Positions 11,262 through 39,049 of a stretch of 64,000 nucleotides of DNA are shown piece after piece. The translations under genes were made by a program, and so were the position numbers. The stretch lies in contig NZ_CP069338.1 of NCBI RefSeq assembly GCF_016859125.1, forward strand, positions 7,503,501-7,567,500. The letters run 5' to 3'. The DNA is from Archangium violaceum (lineage in GTDB: Bacteria; Myxococcota; Myxococcia; Myxococcales; Myxococcaceae). The notes under the pieces are model-generated. The model was not told the origin of the DNA. It did not search any database and saw only the letters and a program-made list of their open reading frames with translations. Each line of letters starts with the position of its first letter. The first letter of the stretch is position 1.

Positions 11262-11333
11262 CGTAACCGTTCGCTCCCCGGACGATTCCCCGTGTGACGG
11301 CGGAAGGAGAGCGCCTGCTCGGTTGTCTACTCT

Positions 11334-12641: not shown

Positions 12642-12853
12642 GAGCCTTCAATGCACGGGGAGGTGTCATTCTGGCATGTCGCCGTCTCGAAAGCTTCAGG
12701 CTGGTCGCCGTGAGAGCGAGGGCACACCTGCCCTGGATGCGACATCCCGGCGCCGCTCCGTTCGCCAATGCTCAAATGACCGAACCCGGTACACCGAATG
12801 GCTCGCATCCCCGGTGCTCCGTGCGCATTGCGGTACGCCCGGGAGGAAGCACG

Positions 12854-14953
12854 GTGGACACGAACGACACGCAATCGTTGCGCATCAATGAGCGGAGCAA
12901 GGACGAGGCCCTCGCGAAGGACCGCTCGGACCCCACGGGCCAGCGGATGACGACGGACCAGGGCATCGGCATCGAGCACACCGATGATTCGCTTCGCGTG
13001 GGGACCCGAGGGCCCACGCTGCTGGAGGACTTCCACTTCCGAGAGAAGCTGACGCGCTTCGATCACGAGCGGATTCCCGAGCGGGTCGTCCACGCGCGCG
13101 GGTCGGCCGCTCACGGCTACTTCCAGGTGTACGAATCGCAGGCCGAGTACACGAAGGCCCGCTTCCTCCAGGATCCCTCGGTGAAGACGCCCGTCTTCGT
13201 GCGCTTCTCCACCGTGGCGGGCTCGCGCGGGTCCGCGGATACGGTGCGGGACGTGCGCGGCTTCGCCGTCAAGTTCTACACGGAGGAGGGCAACTTCGAC
13301 CTGGTGGGCAACAACATCCCCGTCTTCTTCATCCAGGACGGCATCAAGTTCCCGGATGTGGTGCACGCGGTGAAGCCCGAGCCGCACCACGAGATGCCCC
13401 AGGCCGCCTCCGCGCATGACTCCTTCTGGGACTTCGTCTCGCTCGTCCCCGAGACGGCGCACATGATCATGTGGGTCATGTCCGACCGGGCGCTGCCGCG
13501 AAGCTACCGCATGATGGAGGGCTTCGGCGTGCACACCTTCCGGCTGGTGAACGCGAAGGGCGTGTCGCGCTTCGTCAAGTTCCACTGGAAGCCGCTGCTC
13601 GGCGTGCACTCGCTCGTCTGGGAGGAGTCCCAGAAGCTCGCCGGCAAGGATCCCGACTACCACCGGCGCGACCTCTGGGAGGCCATCGAGGCGGGTGACT
13701 ACCCCGAGTACGAGCTCGGGGTGCAGATCATCGAGGAGTCGGACGTGGAGAAGCTGGGGATCGAGCTGTTGGATCCCACGAAGATCGTCCCGGAGGAGCT
13801 GGTTCCGGTCCGCCGCATCGGCAAGCTCACCCTCAACCGCAACCCGACGAACTTCTTCGCCGAGACGGAGCAGGTCGCGTTCTGCGTCGCGAACGTGGTG
13901 CCGGGGATCGACTTCACCGATGACCCGCTGATGCAGGCCCGCCTCTTCTCGTACCTGGACACGCAGCTCTCGCGGCTCGGCGGACCGAACTTCGCGGAGA
14001 TCCCCATCAACCGTCCGCTGGCACCGGTGCACAACCACCAGCAGGACGGCATCAAGCGGCATACGATCGACGTCGGCAGGGCCAACTACCACCCGAACTC
14101 GCTCAGCGGGGGCTGCCCGATGCTCTCCGCCGCCAGCAACGGCGGCTTCACCCACTTCCCGGCGAAGGTGACCGGAGAGAAGACGCGCGCCCGGAGCGAG
14201 TCCTTCTCGGACCACTTCAGCCAGGCCGGGCTGTTCTTCCGGAGCATGTCGAAGCCCGAGAAGGAGCACATCATCGCCGCCCTGCTCTTCGAGCTGGGGA
14301 AGGTGGAACGGAAGGAGATCCGCCAGCGCGTCGTGGAGCGGATCCTGGCGAGGATCGACGGGGAGCTCGCGATACCGGTGGCCGAGGGACTCGGACTGCC
14401 GGCGCCCAAGCTGTCCGTGGTGAAGGGCAACATCGAGAAGTCACCGGCCCTCAGCATCGAGAACACGAGGAAGAGCTCCATCAAGACGCGGCGCATCGCG
14501 GCGCTCGTGGCGGAGGGGGTCGAGGTCTCCGAGGTCGAGGCCGCGCGGGCCGCGCTCGAGAAGGAGGGGGCGAAGCTGCTGGTCATCGCCAAGCACCTCG
14601 GCACGGTGAAGGGCGCGGGTGGGAAGGTGGAGGTCGACAAGAGCGCGCTCACGACGGCCTCGCTCGAATACGACGCCGTCTTCATTCCGGGTGGCTCCGC
14701 GAGCGTGGCGGTGCTGAAGAAAGACGGAGACGCGCTGCACTTCGTCCAGGAGGCGTACCGTCACTGCAAGGCCATCGCCGCGACGAAGGAGGGCGCCGAG
14801 CTCCTGGAGGCCTGCGGGATCTCCGCCTCCGCGCCGGGCATCGTGGTGAACCAGGAGGGGGCGGGGAGCAACGCCTTCGCCGCCACGTTCGTCTCGGCCA
14901 TCGCGCAGCACCGGCATTGGGACCGCGCCGACAGGCACACCATCCCGGCCTGA
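12854..14953 (+). CDS. katE: Large-subunit monofunctional catalase with C-terminal DJ-1/PfpI-like domain
   Basis: Breaks hydrogen peroxide into water and oxygen. This is the HPII type: 699 residues, with a catalase core (about 25-500) followed by a flavodoxin/DJ-1-like domain (about 545-695, e.g. YDAVFIPGGSASV). The catalytic histidine is in RVVHARGSAAHG, the asparagine in VGNNIPVFF, and the haem-ligand tyrosine in ARLFSYLDTQ. I chose the GTG at 12854 because GGGAGGAAG sits four bases upstream and the protein then starts as relatives do; upstream in-frame ATGs at 12710 and 12776 lack such a site. A hairpin follows the stop codon. Probably a stress or stationary-phase enzyme. Confidence 0.95.
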   Translation: MDTNDTQSLRINERSKDEALAKDRSDPTGQRMTTDQGIGIEHTDDSLRVGTRGPTLLEDFHFREKLTRFDHERIPERVVHARGSAAHGYFQVYESQAEYTKARFLQDPSVKTPVFVRFSTVAGSRGSADTVRDVRGFAVKFYTEEGNFDLVGNNIPVFFIQDGIKFPDVVHAVKPEPHHEMPQAASAHDSFWDFVSLVPETAHMIMWVMSDRALPRSYRMMEGFGVHTFRLVNAKGVSRFVKFHWKPLLGVHSLVWEESQKLAGKDPDYHRRDLWEAIEAGDYPEYELGVQIIEESDVEKLGIELLDPTKIVPEELVPVRRIGKLTLNRNPTNFFAETEQVAFCVANVVPGIDFTDDPLMQARLFSYLDTQLSRLGGPNFAEIPINRPLAPVHNHQQDGIKRHTIDVGRANYHPNSLSGGCPMLSAASNGGFTHFPAKVTGEKTRARSESFSDHFSQAGLFFRSMSKPEKEHIIAALLFELGKVERKEIRQRVVERILARIDGELAIPVAEGLGLPAPKLSVVKGNIEKSPALSIENTRKSSIKTRRIAALVAEGVEVSEVEAARAALEKEGAKLLVIAKHLGTVKGAGGKVEVDKSALTTASLEYDAVFIPGGSASVAVLKKDGDALHFVQEAYRHCKAIAATKEGAELLEACGISASAPGIVVNQEGAGSNAFAATFVSAIAQHRHWDRADRHTIPA

Positions 14954-14976
14954 GGTGAGCTGAACCGGGTGGAGCG

Positions 14977-15001
14977 GGGTAGGGGGTGCGCCCTCCTACC
15001 C
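14977..15001 (+). terminator. Hairpin after katE
   Basis: GGGTAGG (14977-14983) pairs with CCTACCC (14995-15001) across a G/C-rich loop, 24 nt after the catalase stop. There is no T run behind it, so it may slow or protect the 3' end rather than act as a classical terminator. Confidence 0.45.
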
Positions 15002-15036
15002 TGGCTCGGGGCCGGGTGCGCTAGAATGCACGGACC

Positions 15037-15228
15037 ATGAGCGACTCCCCCAAGGGCGATCAGTTCGGACGGAAGCCGGAAGAGACGAAGAAGAACCCGA
15101 AGGTGTTCGGCTTGAGGGTGAAGATCGACCCCTATCTCAAGCCGCAGCCAGGCGAGAAGAAGCGCAAGGACGAGAAGTTCGATCCCTTCGCGGTGACCTA
15201 CGAGGCCCCCAAGCCCGAGGACTTCTGA
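15037..15228 (+). CDS. Small charged conserved-looking protein
   Basis: 63 residues, rich in lysine, proline and acidic residues (MSDSPKGDQFGRKPEETKK at the start, TYEAPKPEDF at the end), with no hydrophobic segment, so cytoplasmic and probably partly disordered. Codon use fits the high GC pattern with G/C at third positions. It stands alone between katE and the cyclotransferase gene. No family recognised. Confidence 0.6.
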   Translation: MSDSPKGDQFGRKPEETKKNPKVFGLRVKIDPYLKPQPGEKKRKDEKFDPFAVTYEAPKPEDF

Positions 15229-15321
15229 GGTCCTGAGGGTGGCCTCCCGGGCTCCCCCTCCCAAGGGGAACAACGTCATCATCACCGGGCTCTACCTCGA
15301 GAGCCTCGAGACCGCGCAGGC

Positions 15322-15825
15322 ATGTGGATCTTCGGCTATGGCTCACTCATCTTCCGTCCCTCCTTTCCGTACGAGGAGCGCCGTGGGGCGTGGCTGAGGG
15401 ACTGGGGGCGGCGCTTCTGGCAGGGCTCGACGGATCACCGGGGCGTGCCGGAGGCGCCCGGGCGGGTGGTGACGCTGGTGCCCGAGTCCGGCGCGCGCTG
15501 CTGGGGCGTGGCGTACCGGATCGCCACCGAGCGCGTGGACGAGGTGCTGGCCCACCTGGATTTCCGTGAGCAGGGTGGGTACGAGCGCCTCCTGGTGAAG
15601 CTGGAGACGCGCGAGCCCCCGCAGATGGAGGCCCTGGTCTACGTGGCCGGCCCGACCAACCCCCACTACCTGGGACCCGCGACGCTGGAGGAGATCGCGG
15701 CGGTGGTGCGCTCCGCCCACGGCCCCAGCGGTTCGAACCGCGACTACGTGCATCGGCTGGCGGAGGCACTGGCCCAGGCCGGCGAGTACGACGCGCATGT
15801 GACGGAGCTGGCGCTGCTGCTGTAG
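15322..15825 (+). CDS. ChaC-like glutathione-specific gamma-glutamylcyclotransferase
   Basis: 167 residues, the usual length of bacterial ChaC. It opens with WIFGYGSLIFRP, the substrate-binding loop of the family, and has the catalytic glutamate in LDFREQGGYER; VYVAGPTNPHYLGP and SNRDYVHRL are further family segments. ChaC enzymes cut glutathione to 5-oxoproline and Cys-Gly in the cytoplasm. The ribosome site is weak and no operon partner exists. Confidence 0.9.
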   Translation: MWIFGYGSLIFRPSFPYEERRGAWLRDWGRRFWQGSTDHRGVPEAPGRVVTLVPESGARCWGVAYRIATERVDEVLAHLDFREQGGYERLLVKLETREPPQMEALVYVAGPTNPHYLGPATLEEIAAVVRSAHGPSGSNRDYVHRLAEALAQAGEYDAHVTELALLL

Positions 15826-15849
15826 CCGCCGGAGCCGCGAGGGTGCGCA

Positions 15850-16150
15850 CTACGTGCGCGCGTCGAAGCTCTGCTGGGCGCGGACGACCTCACCGATGTG
15901 CTCCTCGGCCCAGCCGCGGAGCGCATCCACTTTGACCGCGAGCGTCTGACCGAGCGCACTGGGAGGAAATGTGGTCGGCGATGCCTTGTATCGCCAGTTG
16001 GCGCCAATCGCCGACGACGTCGTCGGACACATCATTCCCGAATGCGGCCACGCCATTCCGGAGGAACGCCCGGATGCGCTCCTGCGCCACCTGTCCGACT
16101 TTCTTGGCTGAACGGGAGACATGGGCGCGCACCGGGTCATCCAGGGCGTG
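15850..16150 (-). pseudogene. Frameshifted small gene behind the alpha/beta hydrolase
   Basis: Directly after the hydrolase stop, in the same frame, the minus strand reads LDDPVRAHVSRSAKKVGQVA and goes on with plausible helical sequence to GIADH. There the frame is lost at ACATTTCCTCC near 15970. One base over, it continues PPSALGQTLAVKVDALRGWA to SFDART and a stop at 15850. The joined product would be about 95 residues, soluble, and composed like a real protein. I do not recognise the family. A sequencing error, a true lesion and programmed slippage are all possible. Confidence 0.45.
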
Positions 16151-17044
16151 TCACGCGGAACGGTGGGTGTGGTCGAGAATGGCATCGGCGAGGGGCCGAT
16201 GGATGGCGCTGGGAAGCGCATGCCCCATGTCGGGGAGCTCCACCAGCCGGGCACCGGGGATGGATTGGGCGAGGTGCCGGCCGTGGGGAGGGGGGTTGAG
16301 CGGATCCTGCCCCCCTTGGATGACGAGCGTGGGCGTGGTGATGCCACGCAGCTCGGCGCCGCGTGCCAGGGGCACCGGCGTGGCCAGGGCATGAGCACTC
16401 GGCTGGACGAGGCTCCCCGCATGAGCGATGACCCGCTCCTCGTAGCGCCGGAACTCGTCCACGTCGAAGGGGATCTTGTCGCCGGAGAGCGCCCGCCACT
16501 CCGTCACACGCCGGTCCAGCTCGGAGGCCCGGTCCCGGACGGGCTCGGCGCGCCGGGCCAGCACGGCGAGGACGCGCGGGTCGGGCGTGGGCAGCCCATC
16601 GAGCGTGGGCTGTCCCTTGAAGGCCCTCTCCATATTGCCCACGAAGTCCACGCCCAGCGCGGCGGTGAGCATCACGGTCAGCGTGTGCAGGCGCTCGCGG
16701 TGGTCGAGCGCGAGCACCTGGCCGAGCGTGCCTCCCATGGACAGCCCCACGACGTGGGCGCGTTGCACGCCATGGCCGTCGAGCACGGAGACGGCGTCCC
16801 GGGCGAGATCGATGAGGGAGTAGGGGTGTCGGGTGAAGTCCCGGCACGTCGAGCGGCCCGTGTCGCGGTGGTCATAGCGGATGACGTGGTGACCGCCGGC
16901 CACAAGCAGCGCGATGAATTCCTCCGGCCAGGAGACGCCCGAGGCATTGGCCCCCATGATGAGCAACAGCGTGGGGTCGCGAGGATCCCCGAGGTCTTCG
17001 CTCCACAGTTCCACTTCACCCGAGACAATCATCCGTTCGGCCAT
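16151..17044 (-). CDS. Alpha/beta-hydrolase fold protein
   Basis: About 297 residues, no signal peptide, so cytoplasmic. The nucleophile elbow is HVVGLSMGGTLGQ (Ser near 118), the oxyanion region LLLIMGANASG, the acid region LVIQGGQDPLNPPPHG and the catalytic histidine in DMGHALPS. The overall pattern matches esterase/aromatic-hydrolase relatives such as the RdmC/aclacinomycin methylesterase group, but the substrate cannot be read. Start chosen at 17044 (MAERMIVSGEVEL); 17080 and 17032 are alternatives. A small broken frame follows immediately. Confidence 0.85.
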   Translation of the reverse strand: MAERMIVSGEVELWSEDLGDPRDPTLLLIMGANASGVSWPEEFIALLVAGGHHVIRYDHRDTGRSTCRDFTRHPYSLIDLARDAVSVLDGHGVQRAHVVGLSMGGTLGQVLALDHRERLHTLTVMLTAALGVDFVGNMERAFKGQPTLDGLPTPDPRVLAVLARRAEPVRDRASELDRRVTEWRALSGDKIPFDVDEFRRYEERVIAHAGSLVQPSAHALATPVPLARGAELRGITTPTLVIQGGQDPLNPPPHGRHLAQSIPGARLVELPDMGHALPSAIHRPLADAILDHTHRSA

Positions 17045-17190
17045 GGCTTCTTGAATACCGTCTCGGGCGGCGTGCCTCAATCCTCCAGTAAGCTGGCAGA
17101 GGGTCGGATCATCATGCCCGCAGGGTAACGGCTCCGGCTGGGCCCGCCCACTGCATCCTACGAATCGCTGGCGTTAGAAGAAATCGGCGT

Positions 17191-17358
17191 GGCGTTCTGG
17201 AAAAAACGTATCGCGGTTTTTCTTTTTAACGCCGTTGGAGTGTCTCGCCACCAGAGACCTCTTTTACTCATGAGGAGCACTGGTGCTTCGACAACTCATT
17301 CTGGCAGCTACCCTTTGCCTCGCGGAGGACGCGTTGGCCATGCCTCCTGCGGGAGGCT
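17191..17358 (+). repeat. Duplicated leader/signal-peptide cassette, copy 1
   Basis: 168 nt that align without gaps to 23461-23628. The match covers the AT-rich upstream region, the GAGGAG ribosome site, the GTG start and the whole signal peptide of the gene behind it, and stops soon after the signal-peptide cleavage region. The two downstream proteins are unrelated. Confidence 0.85.
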
Positions 17359-19304
17359 TGAGCACTTCGGCTGCGACGTCACTGCCGGAGTGTGAGCCTC
17401 GGGAAGTCGGTGGGCCCATGTGGGTCTCCGCTGACTGTGTCGACCCGCTGTACAACCGCCCGGTCATCGACAGCCAGACCGATTTGACCACCCCGGTGCC
17501 GCATTTCAAGGTGTCGGGCCACTTCGAGGGCACCGATAAGCGGTTCAACTTCTACTTTCCGAAGAGTCAGTGGGAGGGCCGCTTCTTCAATCTGGTGTAC
17601 CCGCTCCAGGACGAGAACGCCACCGACGAGGACGTCAGCTTCGGCGCGGACAGCGGGGCGTACACGGTGCAGACGAACGGCGGCGGTGGCTATCGGGTCG
17701 ACGCGGCCGCGGCGAAGTTCTCCAAGACGGTCGCGGCGAGCTACTACGGTTCGTCCAGACGGATCCATGGCTACATCTACGGCGGTAGCGGTGGCTCCTT
17801 CCAGACCCTCGGTGCCATCGAGAACAGCGCTGAGGTGTGGGACGGTGCCGTGCCGTTCATCCCAGGCGTGCCGACCTCCATCCCGAACGACTTCTTCATC
17901 CGGGCCTTCGCGCGCTTCGTGCTGGAGGACAAGGCACCGCGGATAGCGAGCGCGGTGAGCCCAGGTGGTAGCGGTAACCCCTACGCCGGGCTCGATGATG
18001 TGGAGCGGGCGGTGCTGCTCGAGGTGACGAGGCTGGGCATACCGCTGCGGGCCTGGGAGGACTTCGCGTATGTGCTCGGTCTGAACGATCCTCAGGGCCT
18101 CCTCGGTTTCGGAAATGTGATCCGGGGCAGCGATCCCACGTATGTCGACGACTTCTGGAGCAAGCCGGGGTACCTCGGTACGGAGCAGTCGGCCCTCGGC
18201 GATCTATTTCGTGCCGCCAGGATCGACCGCATCGCCACCATCACCGAGGTCAACCGGAACGCACAGAACGTACCGACACGCCTGTCCCTCGATAGCGTGC
18301 CAGCGGTCCCGACGACAACCGGTCTCGACTACACGCTCTACGCAGCCGACGGCACGACGAAGGTCGGGACCCTGTCGGGTTCACTGGACCCGGCCACGAA
18401 GGTCTTCACCCTCGGGAGCGGGAACCCCGCCAGCGTGCTGAGCGCCATCGGCACCGGAGCCAGGCTGCGGATCGACAACCGGTGGTCTCTCGCGCTGCTC
18501 TCGTACCATCGGCACCAGGTTCCGACGCGGCCGGGCTTCTCCGCTTGGAACCAGTTCAGGGCACCTGACGGAACATTGCTCTACCCTCAGCGTCCCATCG
18601 AGATTGGCCCGATCATCTCCCGCGGCGTGACCGATGGCGGTACGCACACCGGAATGATCCATGGCAAGGTCATCGTGGTCGCCAACCTGCTCGACACCGA
18701 CGCCTACCCCTGGCATGCCGATTGGTACAGCGCGAGGGTGAGGGAGTCCCTCGGCGCGCGCTACGACGACAACTTCCGGCTCTGGTACAACGACAATGCG
18801 GATCATATCGGTCCCCGCACTGCCCGTCTCGTGCAGTACCACGGCATCCTCCAGCAGGCACTTCGGGACGTGAGCGCCTGGGCGGAGAGGGGCGTGGCGC
18901 CCGCGCGATCGACCCGTTACGACGTGGTCTACAGTCAGATCCGGGTGCCGGAGAACGCCGCGGCGCGCCAAGGTATCCAGCCCGTCGTCGAGCTGACCGC
19001 CAACGGCGCTGCCCGGATCGACGTCGCCGCCGGCCAGACCGTCACCTTCGTGGCGAAGATCCAGGTCCCACCAGGGGCCGGCAAGGTCGTGGGCACCGAG
19101 TGGGATTTCGTCGGCACTGGCAACTTCACGGCATCGCCCTTCGGAAGCCCCAGTCGGACGGTGAAGGTATCGGCGACATTCACCTATACCACGCCTGGTA
19201 CCTACTTCCCGGCGCTGCGAGTGACAGCCCAGCGTGAGGGGGACACGAGCACGCCCTTCGCGAAGGTCCAGAACCTGGGTCGCGTTCGCGTCGTGGTCCA
19301 CTAA
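17283..19304 (+). CDS. Secreted alpha/beta-hydrolase-like protein with PKD domain
   Basis: 673 residues, GTG start behind GAGGAG. Signal peptide MLRQLILAATLCLAEDALA, mature from about residue 20. The N-terminal half has a GxSxG-type elbow (YGGSGGSFQT, Ser near 169) and looks like a large esterase of the tannase-like type; a candidate histidine lies in NADHIGPRTARL near residue 510. The last 110 residues form a PKD-like beta-sandwich (GQTVTFVAKIQV, TYTTPGTYFPALRV), a common add-on for binding or spacing in secreted enzymes. Exported, substrate unknown. Its upstream region and signal peptide are shared with the gene at 23553. Confidence 0.75.
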   Translation: MLRQLILAATLCLAEDALAMPPAGGLSTSAATSLPECEPREVGGPMWVSADCVDPLYNRPVIDSQTDLTTPVPHFKVSGHFEGTDKRFNFYFPKSQWEGRFFNLVYPLQDENATDEDVSFGADSGAYTVQTNGGGGYRVDAAAAKFSKTVAASYYGSSRRIHGYIYGGSGGSFQTLGAIENSAEVWDGAVPFIPGVPTSIPNDFFIRAFARFVLEDKAPRIASAVSPGGSGNPYAGLDDVERAVLLEVTRLGIPLRAWEDFAYVLGLNDPQGLLGFGNVIRGSDPTYVDDFWSKPGYLGTEQSALGDLFRAARIDRIATITEVNRNAQNVPTRLSLDSVPAVPTTTGLDYTLYAADGTTKVGTLSGSLDPATKVFTLGSGNPASVLSAIGTGARLRIDNRWSLALLSYHRHQVPTRPGFSAWNQFRAPDGTLLYPQRPIEIGPIISRGVTDGGTHTGMIHGKVIVVANLLDTDAYPWHADWYSARVRESLGARYDDNFRLWYNDNADHIGPRTARLVQYHGILQQALRDVSAWAERGVAPARSTRYDVVYSQIRVPENAAARQGIQPVVELTANGAARIDVAAGQTVTFVAKIQVPPGAGKVVGTEWDFVGTGNFTASPFGSPSRTVKVSATFTYTTPGTYFPALRVTAQREGDTSTPFAKVQNLGRVRVVVH

Positions 19305-19397
19305 GCGGTTCGTCTCAGCAGCGGCAGGGGCGAGAGCCCCTTGCCCCGGACATGCCAGAGGTGGATGTCACTGCCGTCCACCTCACACAGGAATTAA

Positions 19398-20327
19398 TCA
19401 ATCCCCCAGCGCGGAGACGTCCGGGCAGGCGGAGGCATTGCCCACCTCGTCCGTAGCGCTCTTCCTGTAGGTGACACGGAAGCTGGCATCCCAACATTCG
19501 ACCAGGGTGGCGGTGGAGCCCGCGGGCACGTCTCCGCCTGTCGCCTCCAGGATTCCGATGCCCCCCTGGTCTCGCGTCCAGCGGCTGAGGGCGACCACCT
19601 TCTCCTTCTGTCCACCGGGGACGAGGTCGATGTCCTCACTCTGGAACCTCATTTCACCCAGGCCGTCAGGAAGCTCGCGGTAGGCGTAGCGCTGCCTGGC
19701 CTCACTCGAAGTGGCAGTCGGTACGAAGTCCATCCGCACGCTCATGGGCGGCGCACTCGTCTGGTAGTCGATGTCCACCCGCTCCAGGCCCGAGAGCCAG
19801 GGCTCGTCGATGCCGTGGTTCCTTATCTCCGCCGTGAGGATGCTCAACGTCCCCTTTCCCTTGCGGAGCCCTCCGTCCGGTTGGGCACTGCCCTCCGCGA
19901 TGGGCCACCACGCTCCCTCGTTCGAACCCATGGGGCGAAACTCGAGTCTGTATTGGAAGCCCTCGGGCTTGCGCTCCATCTTGAGTCGCATCTCGACGCC
20001 GGGATGGCTCGGGTTTTCCATGGGTCCCCAGATTCGGAGCGTCGGCGCGCGTGTCGTCGGAGAATCCTTTCGGAGCTCCTCCATGAGGAAGAGCCCTTCG
20101 GCGGGCATCTTGTTGAAGCCATCCGCGACCTGGCGGGTGTTCGCGTAGAGCTGGGAGAGCTCACCCAGGGCCAGTCCCATTCTCTCGAAACTCTCGGCTC
20201 CGGGCAGCTTGGCGGACAGGTCCTCTCGTGCCGGCAGCGCATTGAGGAACTCGAGATCGCCGTTGGAGAAATTCCCACCGCACGCGGTGGCGAGGCAGCC
20301 CAGAAGGAGAAGCCTGGTCCGCATCAT
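19398..20327 (-). CDS. Lipoprotein of unknown function
   Basis: 309 residues with a lipobox (LLLLGCLATACGG), so a periplasmic or outer-membrane lipoprotein. The body is soluble and mixed helix/strand; a cysteine pair (VECWDAS, SACPDVS) near the C-terminus may form a disulphide. It is the last gene of a four-gene leftward operon, 10 nt after the caspase-barrel gene, behind an ECF sigma and its anti-sigma. No family recognised. Confidence 0.75.
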   Translation of the reverse strand: MMRTRLLLLGCLATACGGNFSNGDLEFLNALPAREDLSAKLPGAESFERMGLALGELSQLYANTRQVADGFNKMPAEGLFLMEELRKDSPTTRAPTLRIWGPMENPSHPGVEMRLKMERKPEGFQYRLEFRPMGSNEGAWWPIAEGSAQPDGGLRKGKGTLSILTAEIRNHGIDEPWLSGLERVDIDYQTSAPPMSVRMDFVPTATSSEARQRYAYRELPDGLGEMRFQSEDIDLVPGGQKEKVVALSRWTRDQGGIGILEATGGDVPAGSTATLVECWDASFRVTYRKSATDEVGNASACPDVSALGD

Positions 20328-20337
20328 GTCTTTCCTT

Positions 20338-21939
20338 TCAGAGGCGGTACTTCACTTGCATCATGAACTCCCAGTACCCGAGGGAGCGCTGAGAATCGAC
20401 GTTGTAGAAGAAGTAGTGGACGCGGGTGCTCCCGTTGAACTCGAAGCGGTTCGAGAACCGCCAGCGAAAGCCGGTCACGAGACCTGGGGTGAGCACTCCA
20501 TACTTTTGATCCGGGAAGCTCGCGTCCTCGAAGTCTCGGCGCATGGCGTTGTAGGCGAGCCGGGGTCCGATGATGAGAGACACGCGGCCCAGGGGCCACT
20601 CGGCCACCAGCGAGGTGCCCACGGTCAGCAGCGAATAGCGGTAGCGCGGTACCGAGAGGGTGGGGAGCTCCAGCGTGGCATTCTTCGTGCCGAGGGCCAG
20701 GTCGACGGTCCAACTCCAGCCCTCGCGCAAGTAGTCGTGCAGGCTCACCTCCAGGCCCATCATGGGCGTGTAGGGGAAGAGGCTCTCGCGGGTGGGGGCA
20801 TCGAAGAAGGCCTGATGTCCGAGGGAGAGACCCACCGTCCAATATGAGCGGGGATCGCGCCACCGGGAAGGCACGCCCTTCACCGGATCATCCGAGAAGG
20901 GCGTGTCCCGCAGCTGCGACTCGTCGAGCACCGTGGTGGACCCGCGCCGGACCTCGGCCTCGCCCACGCGCAGCCGGTCCGCCATCCTCCGCTTCACCGT
21001 ATACGTGCCCGGGGCCAGGGCGAGCTTCCGCTCGGAGTCCGAGGCCTTGTGCAGCTCCGCCACCACGAGGCCACGCGGGTTCACGAAGTAATAGTCCCCC
21101 GCAGGCGCGGTGCGAGGCACCAGCAGCCCCTCGTTGCTCCCTCGCACATCCGTCAATACCAGGTCGCCCTGGCCCGCCAGGTCGTAGCTGAAGGTCGGGT
21201 GCTGGGGACCGGCGCTGCTGTCCGCGGTGTCCGCCACGGTGCGGGCATAGGCATGGGAGTAGGCCTCGAAGAGTGTCACCTGGCCCTCCCCGGAACGGTC
21301 CGCGTCCCCCATCAGCCCGCTGGCCAGGTGGTGGGAGAAATAGCTGCCGCCCAGCAGGTCCGACTCCTGCGAATCCTCGTTCGCCGAGCTGGAGGTGAGG
21401 ATGACGAGCCCCCGGCTTTCGTGCACGGCGTCCGTGTCGATGGCGAAAGCCGGAGCGCGCCGGGCTCCCTTCGTCCGCGTGAGTGCCCCGGAGCGGCACG
21501 AGTCCAGGATGGCGATGCGGATGTCCACGGGCGTCGCCGTCAGCCGGCGCTTCAGCGTCTCCAGCTCCAGCGCGCTGTCTCCCATCCGCAGCGAGCCGTC
21601 CTTCGCATGGCCCGAGTAGTAGACGATGAGCGAGGTGCGTTCACCCCGGGCCCGTGCCTCTCGTGCGCGCGCTTCCAGCCTGGAGATCGCCTGGAGGAAG
21701 TCCTCCGCGGTCTCGTCCAGCAGCAGCCGCGCATCGCCAGGCTCCACTCCGCCCAGCCGCACCAGGAGGTCGTGCATCTTGCGCGCATCGTCCCTCGCGA
21801 AGCGCAGGGGCCGGGTGTTCGCACCGCCCTCGTCGTTGCCCGCCACCAGCGCGAAGCGGCGCAGCGGTTGTGCCTGCACGGCCGTTGCCAGCAACAACCC
21901 CAGGACGAGCACCCGGGCAGGGTCCGTCAATCGTCTCAT
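20338..21939 (-). CDS. Caspase-like (C14) protease joined to an outer-membrane barrel
   Basis: 533 residues. Signal peptide (RVLVLGLLLATAVQA), then a clan CD peptidase domain (about 25-260) with the catalytic histidine in LIVYYSGHAKDG and the cysteine in IAILDSCRSGAL. A short beta module (about 285-345; GTYTVKRRMADRLRVGEAEV) follows. The last 170 residues are amphipathic strands ending VKYRL, typical of a barrel. The protease thus sits outside the cytoplasm, probably in the periplasm on an outer-membrane anchor. ATGA overlap with the anti-sigma gene couples translation. It may process surface or periplasmic proteins under control of the sigma pair; that link is inferred. Confidence 0.85.
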   Translation of the reverse strand: MRRLTDPARVLVLGLLLATAVQAQPLRRFALVAGNDEGGANTRPLRFARDDARKMHDLLVRLGGVEPGDARLLLDETAEDFLQAISRLEARAREARARGERTSLIVYYSGHAKDGSLRMGDSALELETLKRRLTATPVDIRIAILDSCRSGALTRTKGARRAPAFAIDTDAVHESRGLVILTSSSANEDSQESDLLGGSYFSHHLASGLMGDADRSGEGQVTLFEAYSHAYARTVADTADSSAGPQHPTFSYDLAGQGDLVLTDVRGSNEGLLVPRTAPAGDYYFVNPRGLVVAELHKASDSERKLALAPGTYTVKRRMADRLRVGEAEVRRGSTTVLDESQLRDTPFSDDPVKGVPSRWRDPRSYWTVGLSLGHQAFFDAPTRESLFPYTPMMGLEVSLHDYLREGWSWTVDLALGTKNATLELPTLSVPRYRYSLLTVGTSLVAEWPLGRVSLIIGPRLAYNAMRRDFEDASFPDQKYGVLTPGLVTGFRWRFSNRFEFNGSTRVHYFFYNVDSQRSLGYWEFMMQVKYRL

Positions 21940-22688
21940 GGCTTGCGCAGGAGCCAGTGGATCTCCTCGCCCTCCACGCCCAGCGTGGACATGGTCTCCA
22001 CCTTGCCTCCCGCGGCCTCCCAGGCCCGCCGTGCCGCCGCTTGCACGATCTCCACACTCAACGGCTTCTCGGAAAGCACGAGCACCACCCGCTCATGGCC
22101 CGTGCCCGTGAACTGCACGCTCTCCGGCAGCCAGTGTCTCCCGGCTCCTGCCTCGACAGGGAGGCTCATTCCGAGCGCGGAGTAGAGCTCCGACACCTCG
22201 CCGGTATCGTCCACGGACACCGCCATCACGTACGGGTAGGGCCCCGCCACGTACCCCAGTCGTACCCGCTCGCCCGGCAGGAGCTCCTCGGTGTCACCGG
22301 GCAGGACGGCGCGCTGGGGCCCATCGCCGCCGATGCGCAGCTCCGCGGAGGCTCCGCCCTTGAGCCGGTTGAGGGAAGGAGAGGGCGACAGCAGCGGACG
22401 GACCCCCACCGCCAGCAGGACCGTGGCCGCCACCGCGACCAGCAAGCCATTGAACCGGGGCCGTGAAGGCGCCGCTGTCGGTTCGCGCATGGCTCGCTCC
22501 ACGCCGGCAGCGAATCGCTCGAAGGGAACCTCCTCCTCGAAGCGGGTCTGGTCCGCCTCGAGGCCCTTCATCACCTCGTGACACTCCGGGCACGAGGACA
22601 CATGCGCCTGGGCCTGCTGGGTCTCCGGGCCGGGAAGCTCTCCGGCGTGCAGCCGCCGCAGCGTCCATTCCGACGGGTGACCGCTCAT
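21936..22688 (-). CDS. Anti-sigma factor with zinc finger and one membrane helix
   Basis: 250 residues. The N-terminal anti-sigma zinc finger is visible as AHVSSCPECHEV (H-x3-C-x2-C) with GELPGPE before it; a single transmembrane helix (GLLVAVAATVLLAVGV, near 83-98) separates it from a periplasmic domain with DUF4384-like features (GERVRLGYVAGPYPYVMAVS). Such proteins bind the ECF sigma at the membrane and release it on an outside signal. It overlaps both neighbours by ATGA (sigma upstream, caspase-barrel downstream). Confidence 0.88.
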   Translation of the reverse strand: MSGHPSEWTLRRLHAGELPGPETQQAQAHVSSCPECHEVMKGLEADQTRFEEEVPFERFAAGVERAMREPTAAPSRPRFNGLLVAVAATVLLAVGVRPLLSPSPSLNRLKGGASAELRIGGDGPQRAVLPGDTEELLPGERVRLGYVAGPYPYVMAVSVDDTGEVSELYSALGMSLPVEAGAGRHWLPESVQFTGTGHERVVLVLSEKPLSVEIVQAAARRAWEAAGGKVETMSTLGVEGEEIHWLLRKP

Positions 22689-23224
22689 GGGGCCTTCAGC
22701 TCCTCGTTCGTCAAGGCTGCGAATCGTTCCAGCCGCTTGCGCACCGTGGGTACCGAGCGCTCCAGTATCGCGGCCACCTCTTCCAGCGTCATTCCGTCCA
22801 CCCAGTAGTGCACCACCGCCGCCTGCGTCTCCAGGTCCACCCGGGAGAGAAGCGACCGCACCAGCTCCCGCGCCTCCATCTTCTGCTCTCCCCCATCTCC
22901 CTCGGGACGGGCCCGCGCGTCCCGCTCGAACCAGCGCCGCCAGGGGGCCCGCTCCGCGCGCAGTTGGTTGAGGCAGAGGTGGGTGGCGATCTTCATCAAC
23001 CACGCCAGCGACGAGGATCCGGCGCGGAGCTCGTCCGCGTGGGTGATGGCGCGGGCGAACACCTCCTGCGTCGCGTCCTCGGCCTTCGTGGCGTCCTTCA
23101 ACAGGTAGCGGCAGCGCCCGTACACGCTGCCGCCATACGCCGTGTACAGCTCGCGCAGGAACTCGCTTCGGTCCTTCTTCCCTCCGGTGATGGCCTTCAA
23201 GGCGGGTGGGGTGGGTCCTGCCAC
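22685..23224 (-). CDS. ECF RNA polymerase sigma factor
   Basis: About 179 residues from a GTG at 23224 with GAGG upstream; the longer frame from 23359 has an N-terminus unlike sigma factors. Region 2 is seen in LYTAYGGSVYGRCRYLLKDA and EDATQEVFARAI; region 4 in VDGMTLEEVAAILERSVPTV. It directs RNA polymerase to a small regulon, normally including its own operon. The stop overlaps the anti-sigma start by 4 nt. Confidence 0.92.
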   Translation of the reverse strand: MAGPTPPALKAITGGKKDRSEFLRELYTAYGGSVYGRCRYLLKDATKAEDATQEVFARAITHADELRAGSSSLAWLMKIATHLCLNQLRAERAPWRRWFERDARARPEGDGGEQKMEARELVRSLLSRVDLETQAAVVHYWVDGMTLEEVAAILERSVPTVRKRLERFAALTNEELKAP

Positions 23225-23460
23225 GAACTGCCTCGTCTCGCTGCGGGGATAGGGGGCCCGGAGCTTACAACGAGGAGTCGGTTGGCGTAGTGAGGATACG
23301 GCGGTTGGCAAGCTAGCGTCCCAGCACTCGTGTTCCTCCCAGCGATAGCCCGTGGACATCGCTCGTGAAGGTGAGCGCCGGCCGCTCTACCCGGGGAGGG
23401 TCGTTCACCCGTAGGGACACAGCAGGGCCCTGAAACAGAAAAGCCGATCTTCATGGGCAT

Positions 23461-23628
23461 GGCTTCCTGGAAAAAGGGCATCGCGATTTTTCATTTGAAC
23501 GCGGTTGGCGTGTCTCTCCACCAGAACCTTCTTCCACTCATGAGGAGCACTGGTGCTTCGACGACTCATTCTGGCAGCCACCCTCTGCCTTGCGGGGGGG
23601 GCGTTGGCCAAACCTCCCGCGGGAGGCG
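23461..23628 (+). repeat. Duplicated leader/signal-peptide cassette, copy 2
   Basis: Ungapped partner of 17191-17358, again covering upstream region, GAGGAG ribosome site, GTG start and signal peptide, then diverging completely. Most differences are single substitutions, spread through both coding and non-coding parts. Confidence 0.85.
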
Positions 23629-24974
23629 TGTTCTGCTCCACCTATCCTTCGGCGCCCGCGTGCACGGGACAGCAGCCGTCCTGCAACTACTGTCACGTCG
23701 CGCCACCCCAGCGAAACGTCTTCGGCGCCGGGCTGGAGCCCCACCTGGCTCCCGGCGCGGCACGCCCGTTGTCCGACACGGACTTCGCCTACGCACTCCC
23801 CACGGCGCTGAAGGCCGTCGAGGCGGAGGATGCTGACGGTGACGGGGTGTCCAACCTCGTGGAGATCCAGCGCGGCACCTTCCCGGGCGATGCCACCAGC
23901 GTGCCCGTGGACACCGGCCGCTGCCAGGGGGGTGAAAACAATCCCCAATACGACGTGTGCCGCTACGACGCGCGCTTCGCGTACAAGCGCCTGCTGCTCG
24001 ACGTCTGCGGCGTGCCACCCACCTACGCGCAGCTCAAGGAATTCAGTGCATTGAGCCGTGACGACCAGCTCGCCCGGATGGATGCCGAGCTGGACCGGTG
24101 CGTCCAGAGCGAGTTCTGGCGCGGCAAGGACGGGCAATTGTGGAAGCTGGCTCACCCGAAGATCCGCCCGCTGGGCACGTTCAAGGCTGGCGAGGAGGAC
24201 AGAGGGAGCAATCCTCTCGCCGACTACTACGACGACTACGCGCTCTACGCCTACACGCAGATCGACGACCACGACGCGCGCGAGGTGATGACGGCGAAGT
24301 ACTACGTGCGCCGGGAGAGCAACCCCACCCGCTACACGGCGGTGCCGTCGCTGCCGACGCAAGTCCTGGATGAGCAGCACCGCGCGGGCAACATCACCTC
24401 CCACTGGAGCATCCTCTACTTCGCGATGTTCAGCGCGATGCCACGCAACGCCGCGTCGCAGGCCTATCGGGCCTACCTGGGCCTCGACATCGCCAAACAG
24501 GAGGGCCTCTTCAGCGTTTCCGGCGAGCCCCGCGACTACGACAACGCGGGCGTGACCGCGCCCGCCTGCGCGGCCTGCCACGCGACGCTCGACCCACTGA
24601 CCTACCCCTTCCGCAACTACCAGGGTATCTACATTTATGAGCCGCGCAGCACCTGGGGGAGCTACGTGCCCAACCGGCTCGAGAAGTACTTCTCCTACGT
24701 CTCTCCGATCATCACCCAGACACCGGAGACCGGCTACCTCTTCGGCCAGAAGGTGAACAACCTCGTCGAGTGGGCGGAGGTCGGCGCCAACAGCGATGCC
24801 TTCGCCATCGCCGCCGTCACCGATTACTGGAAGCTGCTCGTGGGCCATCCCCCGACCCCCGAGGAGAACGCCGAGTTCGTCGCCATCTGGAAGCGCTTCA
24901 AGGGCACGCACCAGTACCGCGTGCAGCGCATGCTTCATGATCTGATCCGCACGGAGGCCTACGGTGCGCCCTGA
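23553..24974 (+). CDS. Secreted cytochrome-like protein with two CxxCH motifs
   Basis: 473 residues, GTG start behind GAGGAG. Signal peptide MLRRLILAATLCLAGGALA. A first CxxCH (CNYCHVAPP) lies about 30 residues into the mature protein, then a calcium-binding-like stretch DADGDGVSNLVEIQ, and a second CxxCH late (CAACHATLDPLTYPFRNY), as in DUF1588-type proteins. Haem attachment would happen in the periplasm. It heads a three-gene operon: the next gene overlaps by 11 nt, then a DUF1501 gene. Families of this set occur together in planctomycetes and myxobacteria; the substrate is unknown. Confidence 0.8.
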   Translation: MLRRLILAATLCLAGGALAKPPAGGVFCSTYPSAPACTGQQPSCNYCHVAPPQRNVFGAGLEPHLAPGAARPLSDTDFAYALPTALKAVEAEDADGDGVSNLVEIQRGTFPGDATSVPVDTGRCQGGENNPQYDVCRYDARFAYKRLLLDVCGVPPTYAQLKEFSALSRDDQLARMDAELDRCVQSEFWRGKDGQLWKLAHPKIRPLGTFKAGEEDRGSNPLADYYDDYALYAYTQIDDHDAREVMTAKYYVRRESNPTRYTAVPSLPTQVLDEQHRAGNITSHWSILYFAMFSAMPRNAASQAYRAYLGLDIAKQEGLFSVSGEPRDYDNAGVTAPACAACHATLDPLTYPFRNYQGIYIYEPRSTWGSYVPNRLEKYFSYVSPIITQTPETGYLFGQKVNNLVEWAEVGANSDAFAIAAVTDYWKLLVGHPPTPEENAEFVAIWKRFKGTHQYRVQRMLHDLIRTEAYGAP

Positions 24975-25647
24975 TTTCCTTCGCGTGTTGCTGCTGTCCT
25001 CCGCTTGTGTCCTCTCCGCGTGCCCGTCGTCGCCTTCGTCTTCGCCTTCGGGGCCGGATGCCGGCACGCCGCCGCCCGTCGATGCCGGCACGGGTTCCAA
25101 CGGTGACGTGGCCCGCTCCTCGCGCAACAACCTGCGCTTCAAGAATCCGGAGCAGCTGACGGCCCACTTCGCCGCGGCGCTGTCCCTGCCGCCGGATCAG
25201 GTGTGCAACGAGCTGGGCAAGTACGCCTGCACCACGAACGTGCACAACGTGGTCCTGAACGGCGTCGATCCGTATGTCGTCGGCCTCTTCGAGCCTCTGA
25301 AGGTCACGGGCGCGACGACTCCCAACGTCATCGACCGCGTGGCGCTGGCGGCTTGCGCCCGGCGCGTCTCGCTCGACGTCACCACTCCTGGGGAGGCTGT
25401 CCTCTTCAAGGGCCTCGAGCTCGACGCACAGGGGCGCCTGGCCAACCGGGAGGGCGCGCCGTTCCACGACGCCATCACCTCGCTCTACCAGCGCACCCTG
25501 TTGCGAGATCCCACGGAGGCCGAGGTGGGCGCCCTGTCTCAACTGGCCACCCAGATTGAGTCCATGGGCAGCCAGACCCCGGGCCGCGACTGGATGACCG
25601 CGTCCTGCTTCGCCGTCCTCTCCTCCTCCGAATCCATCTTCTTCTAA
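24964..25647 (+). CDS. Lipoprotein, middle gene of the cytochrome/DUF1501 operon
   Basis: 227 residues from a GTG that overlaps the previous gene. Lipobox LSSACVLSACPSS, then a Ser/Pro/Asp-rich linker (PSSSPSGPDAGTPPP) and a helical domain. DVARSSRNNLRFKNPEQL and HDAITSLYQRTLLRDPTEAE recall the C-terminal helical parts of DUF1549/DUF1592-type proteins, as if the planctomycete-type protein had been split over two genes. Nine nt separate it from the DUF1501 gene. Function unknown. Confidence 0.75.
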   Translation: MRPDFLRVLLLSSACVLSACPSSPSSSPSGPDAGTPPPVDAGTGSNGDVARSSRNNLRFKNPEQLTAHFAAALSLPPDQVCNELGKYACTTNVHNVVLNGVDPYVVGLFEPLKVTGATTPNVIDRVALAACARRVSLDVTTPGEAVLFKGLELDAQGRLANREGAPFHDAITSLYQRTLLRDPTEAEVGALSQLATQIESMGSQTPGRDWMTASCFAVLSSSESIFF

Positions 25648-25656
25648 GGGAACGTC

Positions 25657-27210
25657 ATGTCACTGCGTAACAATGGACGGCTCTCGCGCCGGGAAATCTT
25701 GAAGGCCTTGTCGATGTGCGCCGCGGGCTCCGCGATGGGGCCCCTGCTGACGGGTTGCCGGGACGCGCTCACCACCCCGGCGGCACTCGAGCAACTCGGG
25801 GGCGTGCGCCAGGCGCGCCTGGATGGCAAGCCCCGCTTCCTCATCGTGGTGGGCGCCGTGGGAGGCGCCTCCATCGTCGACAGCATGCTGGCGGTGCGGG
25901 CCTCGGAGACAACGGCGGCGGGCGGCGACGCCGCGAAGCTCAACACCTTCGCCGATGCGCAGGTGCAGAACGTGGACGGCTCTCCGTTCCGTGCCGTGAA
26001 GGTGGAAGCCGAGGTTCTGGGCAGCATCCCCATGAAGTTGAAGACGGACCAGTTGCCCTTCGTGAAGAAGTACAAGGACTCCATGCTGGTGGCCACCTCG
26101 GTGGGCACGTCGGTGAACCACGTCATCGCACAGAAGCGCAGCCTCACCGGCAGTGCCGCCTGGCGCGGCCGCACGTTGCAGGAGTGTGTGGCCCTCCAGT
26201 ACGGCGCGGGCTTCCCCCTTCCCAACGTGAACATGGGCAACGGGGGCTTCTCCGAGCGCGGCACCGACAACTCCCTGCCCGCCTACTGCTATGGAGAGGT
26301 GGTGACCAACCCCTCGTTCTGGCCCCTGGGCCTGGATGGCATGAAGGGCCTCAAGGACGTGCCTTCCCGCGACGTGGTGAACCTGGCCCGGGTCGTGCGC
26401 AACTCGCTCGATGCCCAGTCGGTCTTCGGGAAGACCTTCGACGACGCGGCGGCGCTCGAGCTGTGGAACGAGCAGCGCACCTCGGGGCAGGCCTCGCTGG
26501 AGGTGCAGGATCTGATCAGCCGCCTCAACATGATGCCCGACAATCCGCAAGAGACGCCGCTCTCGGAATACGGCCTTTCGAGCTCCCCCGACGCGGAGCG
26601 GTTGCGCGCGGTGTTCCCGAACTACATGACGGATCCCGTGGAGGGGCAGGCGGCGCTGGCCTTCCTGCTGATCAAGAACCGGGTATCGGTATCGGTGACA
26701 CTGGGCCCGTCGTTCAACATCGCGTACGGTTCATCGAAGCAGTTCACCAACCCTCCACTGGCCTACGACTTCAGCCACAATGAGCACCGCTCGGTCCAGG
26801 CCTTCATGTGGTCGCGCATGATGGACACGATCGACAAGCTGATCGAATTGCTCGAGTCGGAGCCCTTCGACTCGAGCGGCGAGAGCCTGTGGGACCGCTC
26901 GTTGATCTACATGGCGACAGAGTTCGGGCGCACGCGCACACGACAGGCAGGGGCCACGCAGTTCGGCACCGGGCATGACCTCAACAACGGGTTCATGATT
27001 CTGTCGCCGATGGTCCGGGGCAACACGGTGTTGGGAGGCGTGGATCCGAAGACCACGCTGACCTACGGTTTCGACCCGCGCACCGGCGCGCCTCTGCCCG
27101 GCAAGATGGAGGCGAACGAGGCGGACATCTTCTCGGGCATCCTCACCGCGATGGGCGTCGATACCTCCGGCAGCGGGCTGCCCGACGCGAGCGCCTTCGC
27201 GCGCACCTGA
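25657..27210 (+). CDS. DUF1501-family protein with Tat-like leader
   Basis: 517 residues. The N-terminus LSRREILKALSMCAAGSAMG is a twin-arginine export signal, and the GC following it (LLTGCRD) could also be a lipid-attachment site. The body matches DUF1501, an alkaline-phosphatase/sulfatase-like fold: PRFLIVVGAVGGAS early, LIYMATEFGRTRTR and GTGHDLNNGFMILSP late. Folded export across the inner membrane is expected. It forms one operon with the cytochrome-like and lipoprotein genes. Confidence 0.85.
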   Translation: MSLRNNGRLSRREILKALSMCAAGSAMGPLLTGCRDALTTPAALEQLGGVRQARLDGKPRFLIVVGAVGGASIVDSMLAVRASETTAAGGDAAKLNTFADAQVQNVDGSPFRAVKVEAEVLGSIPMKLKTDQLPFVKKYKDSMLVATSVGTSVNHVIAQKRSLTGSAAWRGRTLQECVALQYGAGFPLPNVNMGNGGFSERGTDNSLPAYCYGEVVTNPSFWPLGLDGMKGLKDVPSRDVVNLARVVRNSLDAQSVFGKTFDDAAALELWNEQRTSGQASLEVQDLISRLNMMPDNPQETPLSEYGLSSSPDAERLRAVFPNYMTDPVEGQAALAFLLIKNRVSVSVTLGPSFNIAYGSSKQFTNPPLAYDFSHNEHRSVQAFMWSRMMDTIDKLIELLESEPFDSSGESLWDRSLIYMATEFGRTRTRQAGATQFGTGHDLNNGFMILSPMVRGNTVLGGVDPKTTLTYGFDPRTGAPLPGKMEANEADIFSGILTAMGVDTSGSGLPDASAFART

Positions 27211-27238
27211 GAGCCCGGGACCGGAGGGACGCTGCGCC

Positions 27239-27385
27239 CAATTCGGTGCGTTGATCGGCGATGGCGCGCGCATCGGCGCCAATGCCTTCCTGTCCTCCGG
27301 AACGAGCCTCGCAGCCGGCACGGTGGTGGGCCGGCTGCGACTCGTCGAGCAGGATGGGGCGGAGCCTCGGGGGATAGGAGCTTAG
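27239..27385 (+). pseudogene. Remnant of a hexapeptide-repeat (left-handed beta-helix) protein
   Basis: An open frame without start codon reads LIGDGARIGANAFLSSGTSL and ends VVGRLRLVEQ...GIGA, the C-terminal coil pattern of hexapeptide acyl- or nucleotidyltransferases. Only about 48 codons remain between the DUF1501 gene and the convergent lipoprotein gene, so this is a 3' scrap. Confidence 0.5.
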
Positions 27386-28944
27386 TGGTCGCCCCAGCGG
27401 AGCACCTGCACCATCTGCACCTTGCCGCTGAGGAAGAATCGCGGGCTCGCTCCTGCCTGGGGATCCGCACCGAGCGTCACCGGCACATCCGAGTTGCGGA
27501 CCCCCTCGGTGAAGGAGCCCGCCTGGGTGGTGCCGAATGTGGAGTTGTCCACCCAGAGCCATACCTGGCCATTCCCGTCATATGCGCCGGTGATGAGGTA
27601 GCCATTCGTGCCGTTGAGCGCGGACAGCGAGCGGGTGGCATACTGGTAGCCTCCCTCCACGTGGACACCGAAGCGCAGTGTCCGTGCACCGGAACTGGAG
27701 CGGAAGAGCTCGAGCGCGAAGGCACCGTTCTCCGACTTGCTCACCAGGGCCATGGTGCAACTGCTGGCACCTCCGGGGCAACTCGTCAGCAGATCATCGA
27801 AGTTGACGTAGGCGCTCACGAAGTACCCCTGCCCCGCGGCGGTGTCCGCGTCGTAGAAGGGCATCGACAGGGCGGAGGCCGCGCTGAAGGCGAGTGAGGT
27901 GCCGTAGAGGTTCTCTCCGGTGCCATCCGTCAGGGTGCTCGGAGCACCGGCGACGTTGACGGGGGCCGTGTACGTGGTGGCGTTCGTCTGGTGGTAGCGA
28001 ATGCTCGTTCCCGAGGCTGGCTGGTTCCACACGCTCAGGTAGAGGAGCTGGTTGTTCTCCGAGACGACGGCCCGTGCCTTGGCGACGTCGTAGTCCACCA
28101 CGAAGGCGTCCACCTCCTCGCGCAGGTTGGACAGGTAGACTTCGCCGAAACTGGCCGGGATGGTCCACAGGGTGACGCCCAGCCCCAGGGACTTCGCGTA
28201 GGCGATCTTCGAGAGGATGTTCTTGTCGGCGTAGGGGAACTCGACACCGTGCCAGCCACGGCTGTAGGCATCCTGGATGAGTCCGTGCGTCGCCTGATTC
28301 GCCGAGAACAGGACGTGGAGCCGGAGGTGGGGGCTGATGGCCGGGTATTGCCCGAGGAGCGCTTGCGTCTCGATGATGTTGGCTCGGGTGGCGTGGAAGG
28401 AGCGGATGACGACCGGGCGCCCAGTGCGTGCGTACCAGGTCCGGCGGGCATCGAGGAGGTCGAGGATCTTGCGCGCGATGCTCGCGTGCGAGCTCGTCTC
28501 CTTGATTTCGAGATAGAGCACCGCGTCGTCAGCCTGCAACGCCGGGGAGTCCAGCACGTTCGCGAGCAGCGCGCCGGTGGTGCCTCCGTCGTCATCGTGG
28601 TCCACGTACACCTGGCCGTTCTGCTCCTTGAGGTCGAACTCGATGATGTCGGCGTCGGCGGCGATGGCGGCCTGAACGCGCGAGAGCGTGGACTCGAGAC
28701 TCCTCGCGGAACCAAGGATGCTGTCCACGTAGGTGTTGTGACTGCAGATGCCGACGACGTGCCCCCGCGCGGTAAGGGGGAAGGGCTTGTTGACGCCAGC
28801 CCAATATCCGTCGTTCACCAGGGCCGTCGCTCGTGTCTCCAGGGCGTGTTCGCCTGAGTCCCCGGCGGATACCGGCTCCGCTCCGCAGCCCATGACCGCG
28901 ATGAGACTTCCCAGCCACCAACAACGAAGAATGCGTGTGTTCAT
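27382..28944 (-). CDS. Glycerophosphodiester phosphodiesterase-like lipoprotein with LamG-type domain
   Basis: 520 residues, start at 28944 behind CCGAGGA. Lipobox SLIAVMGCGAE. A TIM-barrel domain (about 50-300) has GICSHNTYVDS, IIEFDLKEQNGQVYVDHDDD and SFHATRAN, the layout of PI-PLC/GDPD-like phosphodiesterases with the paired catalytic histidines. The C-terminal 200 residues form a concanavalin-like sandwich (YVNFDDLLTSCPGGASSCTM, RTLRFGVHVEGG), probably for binding. Surface or periplasmic; substrate likely a phosphodiester head group. Divergent from the mannosidase gene. Confidence 0.82.
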   Translation of the reverse strand: MNTRILRCWWLGSLIAVMGCGAEPVSAGDSGEHALETRATALVNDGYWAGVNKPFPLTARGHVVGICSHNTYVDSILGSARSLESTLSRVQAAIAADADIIEFDLKEQNGQVYVDHDDDGGTTGALLANVLDSPALQADDAVLYLEIKETSSHASIARKILDLLDARRTWYARTGRPVVIRSFHATRANIIETQALLGQYPAISPHLRLHVLFSANQATHGLIQDAYSRGWHGVEFPYADKNILSKIAYAKSLGLGVTLWTIPASFGEVYLSNLREEVDAFVVDYDVAKARAVVSENNQLLYLSVWNQPASGTSIRYHQTNATTYTAPVNVAGAPSTLTDGTGENLYGTSLAFSAASALSMPFYDADTAAGQGYFVSAYVNFDDLLTSCPGGASSCTMALVSKSENGAFALELFRSSSGARTLRFGVHVEGGYQYATRSLSALNGTNGYLITGAYDGNGQVWLWVDNSTFGTTQAGSFTEGVRNSDVPVTLGADPQAGASPRFFLSGKVQMVQVLRWGDH

Positions 28945-38991: not shown

Positions 38992-39049
38992 GGGGGCGGT
39001 GGGAGCGGGCCGCTCAGCTCCTGGCACCGGCCGCCGCCGAGGCGCTCTC

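Follow-up and report, generated by a model that had tools for sequence, protein, structure and literature searches.

How did two genes for unrelated proteins come to begin with the same promoter region, ribosome site, start codon and signal peptide? The question is raised by a 64-kb window of the Archangium violaceum genome (G000; 12.68 Mb, single contig), by which we mean the whole stretch analysed, positions 7,503,501 to 7,567,500 of contig NZ_CP069338.1. In this window one leader stands before gene A (full open reading frame 17283–19304) and again before gene B1, the first gene of a three-gene operon (Table 1). We consider it likely that A, a probably acquired gene, gained its present 5' end from the native B1 through a rearrangement at short homology.

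The shared leader and its owner

The repeat noticed in a preliminary description of the window is real: positions 17191–17358 and 23461–23628 are identical at 141 of 168 sites without a gap (76 of 92 in the non-coding part and 65 of 76 in the coding part), and a search of the window's own genome finds the second copy with a BLAST E-value of 4.3e-47. The true length is slightly greater than the 168 bp first described, about 178 bp, with limits placed by a repeat finder at 17183–17360 and 23453–23630 (84 per cent identity). Each copy runs from an AT-rich upstream region through AGGAG and the GTG start to codon 26, and in both genes these codons encode a signal-peptide-like N terminus. Outside the repeat, identity is at background level (3–7 of 20 sites per block in 17050–17189 and 0–8 of 20 per block in 17370–17569). 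Past codon 26 the A and B1 proteins have no significant similarity (best E-value of 1.3), which upholds the earlier view of one leader, from upstream region through ribosome site to signal peptide, on unrelated cargo.

Further genomic copies had also been anticipated, and a genome-wide search proposed. Besides the window pair, that search found two strong but partial copies (E-value of 1e-10 or better; 79 and 76 per cent identity) that cover the ribosome site and signal peptide. Both of them, at C1:5744923–5745003 and C1:6163981–6164070, are the 5' ends of gene B paralogues. When the B1 copy of the leader was searched in 96 genomes of the family, it was found at 32 places in 17 genomes. Thirty of these places were checked by tblastn: a B gene follows 27, A follows two (in the window and in the relative G080) and neither follows one (in G106). 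The remaining two were placed on B genes by separate comparisons, giving totals of 29 B genes, two A genes and one orphan stub. Because 29 of the 32 places precede B genes, the leader is native to the B family; it is the normal 5' end of these genes, and A is the exception.

The preliminary description had pictured a leader unit copied onto varied cargo, and one could accordingly regard the leader as a mobile or amplifying promoter–signal cassette. Two different cargos within the window and four genomic copies at the E-value given above would fit such a cassette. However, apart from B-family genes, the 96 genomes have the leader only on A and on one orphan stub. A Pfam scan of nine nearby open reading frames found no transposase or integrase (terminal repeats were not specifically searched), and the leader joins the two A genes at different points, unlike a defined unit. 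We discarded the cassette because its cargo is B or A only, and consider it the least probable of the explanations discussed here.

The B1 protein is diheme-cytochrome-like, with matches to PSCyt2 (26.3 bits; cut-off of 29.8) and PSCyt3 (22.5 bits; cut-off of 27) that both lie below the curated score. Against the NCBIfam model diheme_GEGP it scores 34.5, far under the cut-off of 300, and a search of solved structures with B1 returned nothing at E-values up to 1. The three-gene unit headed by B1 matches as a block in all nine relative or paralogue loci compared.

The non-coding divergence between the A and B1 leaders of the window is 17.4–17.9 per cent. The B1 leader of the window differs from those of five other genomes by 15.6–23.3 per cent in its non-coding part, and fourfold sites of B1 diverge by 11.3–14.2 per cent between G000 and the same five genomes. 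Because the divergence of the pair matches that of B1 between species and is not below that of fourfold sites, the leader copy has, by this measure, roughly the age of the divergence between the species, and the likeness of the two leaders needs no special regulatory constraint. Of the two reasons earlier offered for the shared non-coding bases, these values rule against recency and lend no support to regulatory conservation above background.

Another process that could keep the pair alike is subsequent conversion, by B1, of a leader that A already had, as the two leaders lie 6.3 kb apart in one genome, where conversion would be possible. Yet the A leader is no closer to B1 of its own genome than B1 orthologues are among themselves, with no sign of ongoing homogenization, and the A leader of G080 does not group with its own B1 (with weak support). 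We therefore consider conversion highly unlikely.

The fused signal peptide of A has four amino-acid changes in 25 codons relative to that of the window B1. The B1 signals of other genomes have no change (G032 and G081), one change (G003) or three changes (G080) by the same comparison. Because the B1 signal of G080 already has three, the four changes do not by themselves indicate that the fused signal evolves faster.

Gene A and its three arrangements

A first search found no match to A in 57 other relatives (E-value of 1e-20), and wider searches at the same threshold found it in 3 of 96 genomes of the family and 3 of 195 genomes of the phylum, the window included. A pattern scan of genome contigs, which detects close relatives only, recovered 13 loci, including those of Paenibacillus, Cohnella, Nocardia and Streptomyces and weaker ones. 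Window A is 71.6 per cent identical to its relative in Paenibacillus vietnamensis (residues 25–672), 70.5 per cent to that of Cohnella, 68 per cent to those of other Paenibacillus, 64 per cent to that of Nocardia and 57 per cent to that of Streptomyces. The N termini of the best of these relatives differ from that of window A, and the DNA retrieved for each of the 13 loci (up to 6 kb per side) contains no match to B1 or to the other two genes of its operon. Because A is rare in the phylum and its nearest other relatives were found in Paenibacillus and Cohnella, it is, judged by distribution, probably foreign to the host lineage. GC content at third codon positions is 0.82 in A, close to the 0.88 of B1. 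Substitution patterns indicate that A is maintained under purifying selection (ratio of nonsynonymous to synonymous substitution rates [dN/dS] of 0.33, 0.32 and 0.44 in three pairs).

As for the product, a Pfam search with A (E-value of 0.01) matched PKD domains only, NCBIfam gave no match, and the profile of the tannase/feruloyl esterase family was likewise unmatched. One distant relative, located on a plasmid and 28 per cent identical, is annotated as tannase/feruloyl esterase. The structure model of A is poor (mean predicted local distance difference test score of 55), and a search of solved structures with A returned nothing at E-values up to 1.

The three A genes found occur in three different settings. 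G081 carries A as an additional, fourth gene, which starts 24 bp past the stop of the counterpart of the third B1-operon gene; no terminator-like site was found between the operon and A. This A has its own start and a lipoprotein-type signal (MKS...AMLSAC, followed by VSNPAATPLPEC; N terminus MKSANTQHMSWSRTRARSLRPFVWKAVGVGAMLSACVSNPAATPLPEC), and its LSAC agrees with the lipobox pattern.

In the window, B1 codon 26 is joined in frame to A codons 37–38 (G081 numbering), one residue beyond what had been the lipobox cysteine. The window protein matches the A proteins of G080 and G081 from residue 26 onward, at the end of the borrowed codons. The product starts with VLRQLILAATLCLAEDALA, followed by MPPAGGLSTSAATSLPEC, and the signal has an AxA end and no lipobox; by these motifs, the signal of window A would have changed from the lipoprotein type to the cleaved soluble type.

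In G080, A is located on a different contig from B1. A B1-type upstream region (homologous to window 23320–23567) with about five codons is joined to A, in frame, at B1 codon 5–6 and A codon 16–17 (G081 numbering). The N terminus of this A is VFRRFSRCHRPSVWKAVGVGVMLSACVSDPAATPLPEC, and the lipoprotein-type signal is kept. Because the junctions of the window and of G080 differ, we infer at least two rearrangements. The G080 gene (L103, G080:C12, ~9697) also lacks the usual stop and reads on for 12 codons into unrelated DNA.

Proposed capture, rival explanations and known systems

We propose that A was first placed downstream of a B1-type promoter. In a duplicated copy, deletion or template-switch recombination at a very short shared sequence would then have dropped the B1 body and the operon genes and fused the leader to A, with different junctions used in the two lineages. 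With the genes ordered as in G081 (B1 promoter, B1, two further genes, A), the observed fusions would result directly from a deletion inside one copy of the block. Since G000 and G080 retain an intact B1, this calls for a duplicated block or a copied segment. Such a duplication of the B block appears plausible, because G003 and G005 carry a second B operon close to B1. As predicted from the sequence, B1-type control would govern the expression of A, and the window species would export A as a cleaved soluble protein and not as a lipid-anchored one.

The orphan stub of G106 has a bearing on the position of the breaks. In this genome the whole B operon is gone, and the leader with about 22–25 codons is left (L156, G106:C24, reverse-complement ~4594–4668). 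With the loss of the B operon past the stub in G106, a third lineage, there have been at least two breaks near the signal-peptide end of B genes. The DNA after the stub has no match in G101, the genome used for comparison, and has a long open frame on the opposite strand. We also considered the palindrome CCTCCCGCGGGAGG, at the signal-peptide end, as a breakpoint hot spot and set it aside as speculation: it is present in 7 of 30 scanned family members and absent from G101, and the window holds 16 palindromes of at least 14 bp.

Several observations weigh against the capture as proposed. No genome showed the intermediate, a duplicated operon to which A is still attached. In G080 and G032 the site behind the B1 operon lacks A, ~51 and ~32 bp, respectively, lying between the flanking blocks, and the placement of A in G081 may be a later insertion rather than the ancestral state. 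The candidate promoter pattern was read by eye and does not fit B1 of G080, and the class of the signals is assigned from motifs alone. In the leader tree, the A leader of G080 is not placed with the B1 leader of the same genome (with weak support of 82/88 and 84/86), and A may have been captured in another lineage and then transferred.

This last point leads to the most serious rival, in which the fusion of a B1-type leader with A arrived already complete from another related bacterium and the capture took place elsewhere. The synonymous divergence (dS) of A between G000 and G080 is lower than that of B1 (0.119 versus 0.191), the two A leaders are mutually closest by a small margin (13.8 per cent; the next is 14.9 per cent), and the A region of G080 has only the leader and A in common with the window and G081. 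However, the contrast between A and B1 is modest, A may evolve more slowly (A/B1 dS ratio of ~0.85 in the other two pairs), and one ready-made gene cannot account for the differing junctions of G000 and G080. A search for shared derived sites that would tell one capture from two found none common to the two A leaders alone; three sites common to the A and B1 leaders of the window are, by our reading, a one-base misalignment. Transfer of a finished fusion is thus a real contender, though we lean away from it.

The second B operon of G003 and G005 suggests a further route, in which A took the place of the body of a B2-type operon copy upstream of B1, arranged as in these genomes: there the second operon lies ~6.3 kb upstream of B1, nearly the same distance as A. 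The type of the leader does not match this source. The A leader is 86 per cent identical to the B1 leader of G003 and G005 (positions 28–166) versus 73–77 per cent to that of B2 (positions 90–166 only), and the non-coding part of the B2 leader is 22–25 per cent identical, as expected by chance. Moreover, for the DNA left of B2 in G003, G000 offers no more than two weak matches, both far from the window. The B2 operon was rejected as the source of the leader, and we regard the replacement as very unlikely. The left flank of this second operon in G003 (L033) also matches several neighbouring places in G002:C1:2673975–2681973, which suggests a local multi-copy gene array there.

Returning to capture from B1, a bolder reading, which we hold only tentatively and think unlikely to be right in full, is that control by the B1 promoter is itself under selection. 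A would then be tied to B1 in three ways: as an operon member (G081), by a promoter fusion with a lipoprotein-type signal (G080) and by a fusion of promoter plus signal peptide (window). Breakage would recur at the signal-peptide end of B genes and hand incoming genes expression and destination together, including a switch from lipid-anchored to soluble.

The case belongs to a known kind, that of promoter capture, deletion-born fusion and signal gain or loss. Promoter capture by horizontally transferred genes, through deletion or tandem duplication, is described in PMC11111574, the Introduction of which cites Li and Bock 2019, Anderson and Roth 1978 and the Escherichia coli citrate case. As there, an acquired gene comes under a resident promoter through illegitimate recombination at sites of little or no homology. 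Unlike there, the start codon and signal peptide came along and displaced the gene's own export signal, and the event is natural, old and found in two lineages with different junctions, not a product of laboratory selection. Gene fusions born by deletion are described in a preprint (PMC12803068), in which, as here, distant gene pieces are joined in frame as a new gene. There the joining is by deletion; here, no pair of genomes differs by deletion alone and the parent B1 persists. The terms signal peptide and microhomology are absent from its main text. Signal peptide gain and loss among Enterobacterales orthologues is reported in PMC5952966; there, too, entire N-terminal signal segments distinguish orthologues, in most cases because of insertions or deletions, whereas the present case is a swap of signal class with the donor gene identified. 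Keyword searches of open-access papers showed, among the matches listed, no report of this locus or of such a double capture.

What is unusual here is that promoter region, start and signal moved together, that the export class, by motif, changed, and that two lineages have different junctions with one donor family. Laboratory selections are a common way to study how newly acquired genes are expressed and targeted; in the present case the donor, the recipient, a form of the recipient that has its own leader and two fusion junctions are all readable in living relatives. The locus may thus offer a natural, testable case of one rearrangement that altered both regulation and, going by the signal motif of window A, destination.

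Candidate control region and surrounding DNA

The pattern TTTTC-N17-GTGTCT/GTGTTT lies at -65 in both A leaders and at -60 or -65 in five of six B1 orthologues. A looser version occurs in 12 of 37 upstream regions, counted without the G100 and G089 loci (start not located), versus a mean of 0.17 (maximum of 2) in 200 mononucleotide shuffles; drawn from the same, related sequences, the pattern is a description and not a test. A sigma-70 scan of 17050–27700 reported no promoters, and an Rfam scan of the window at gathering scores gave no match.

Table 1. Features of the A and B1 loci, in window coordinates.
Feature	Position	Strand	Evidence
B1-type upstream region before A; candidate promoter TTTTC-N17-GTGTCT (17218–17245), AGGAG (17273–17277)	17183–17282	+	Alignment; pattern by eye
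B1-derived codons 1–26 fused to A; GTG start and cleaved-type signal (VLRQLILAATLCLAEDALA, then MPPAGG L)	17283–17360	+	Alignment
Fusion junction; GCGTG common to B1 (GGC GTG TTC) and G081 A (TGC GTG AGC); window GGC TTG AGC	17356–17360	+	
Gene A body, probably acquired, rare; C-terminal PKD domain; perhaps tannase-like alpha/beta hydrolase (weak)	17361–19304	+	Pfam PKD, 7.1e-6
Gene fragment of 92 bp abutting the A stop	19304–19395	-	Similar stretches in this and related genomes
Native leader copy: B1 upstream region and ribosome site	23453–23552	+	Repeat alignment; family search
Gene B1, 473 amino acids, two CxxCH, weak PSCyt2/PSCyt3; native owner of the leader	23553–24974	+	Profile matches
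B1 operon gene 2, 227 amino acids, lipoprotein-like N terminus	24964–25647	+	
B1 operon gene 3, 517 amino acids, twin-arginine-like N terminus (SRREILKAL)	25657–27210	+	

In each of the seven relatives searched, scattered places match pieces of the DNA to the left of the A leader (11000–17190). To its left, the B1 locus is unlike that of the window in G032, in G003 and G005, and in G081 (the last via the match between G081 and G032). The fragment next to the A stop has two other copies in the genome (E-values up to 0.01) and five among the matches listed in G080 and G081. It reads as a piece of what is, by its translated motif, probably an epoxide-hydrolase-like gene, and as a gene fragment it was rejected as a recombination element. 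The three A genes stop resembling each other at their last codons. As a whole the region is a patchwork of the kind that fits illegitimate recombination.

Beside the B1 operon, the minus strand encodes a caspase-domain protein (20338–21939) and a protein with a weak, anti-sigma-like zf-HC2 match (21936–23003); DNA matching this pair adjoins B1 in G003, G005, G032, G080 and G081. Elsewhere in the window, 38366–40319 consists of three units at a spacing of 685 bp, the second 95–96 per cent and the third 79–81 per cent identical to the first. Two 79-bp copies that are 87 per cent alike lie 1206 bp apart, at 58411–58489 and 59617–59695.

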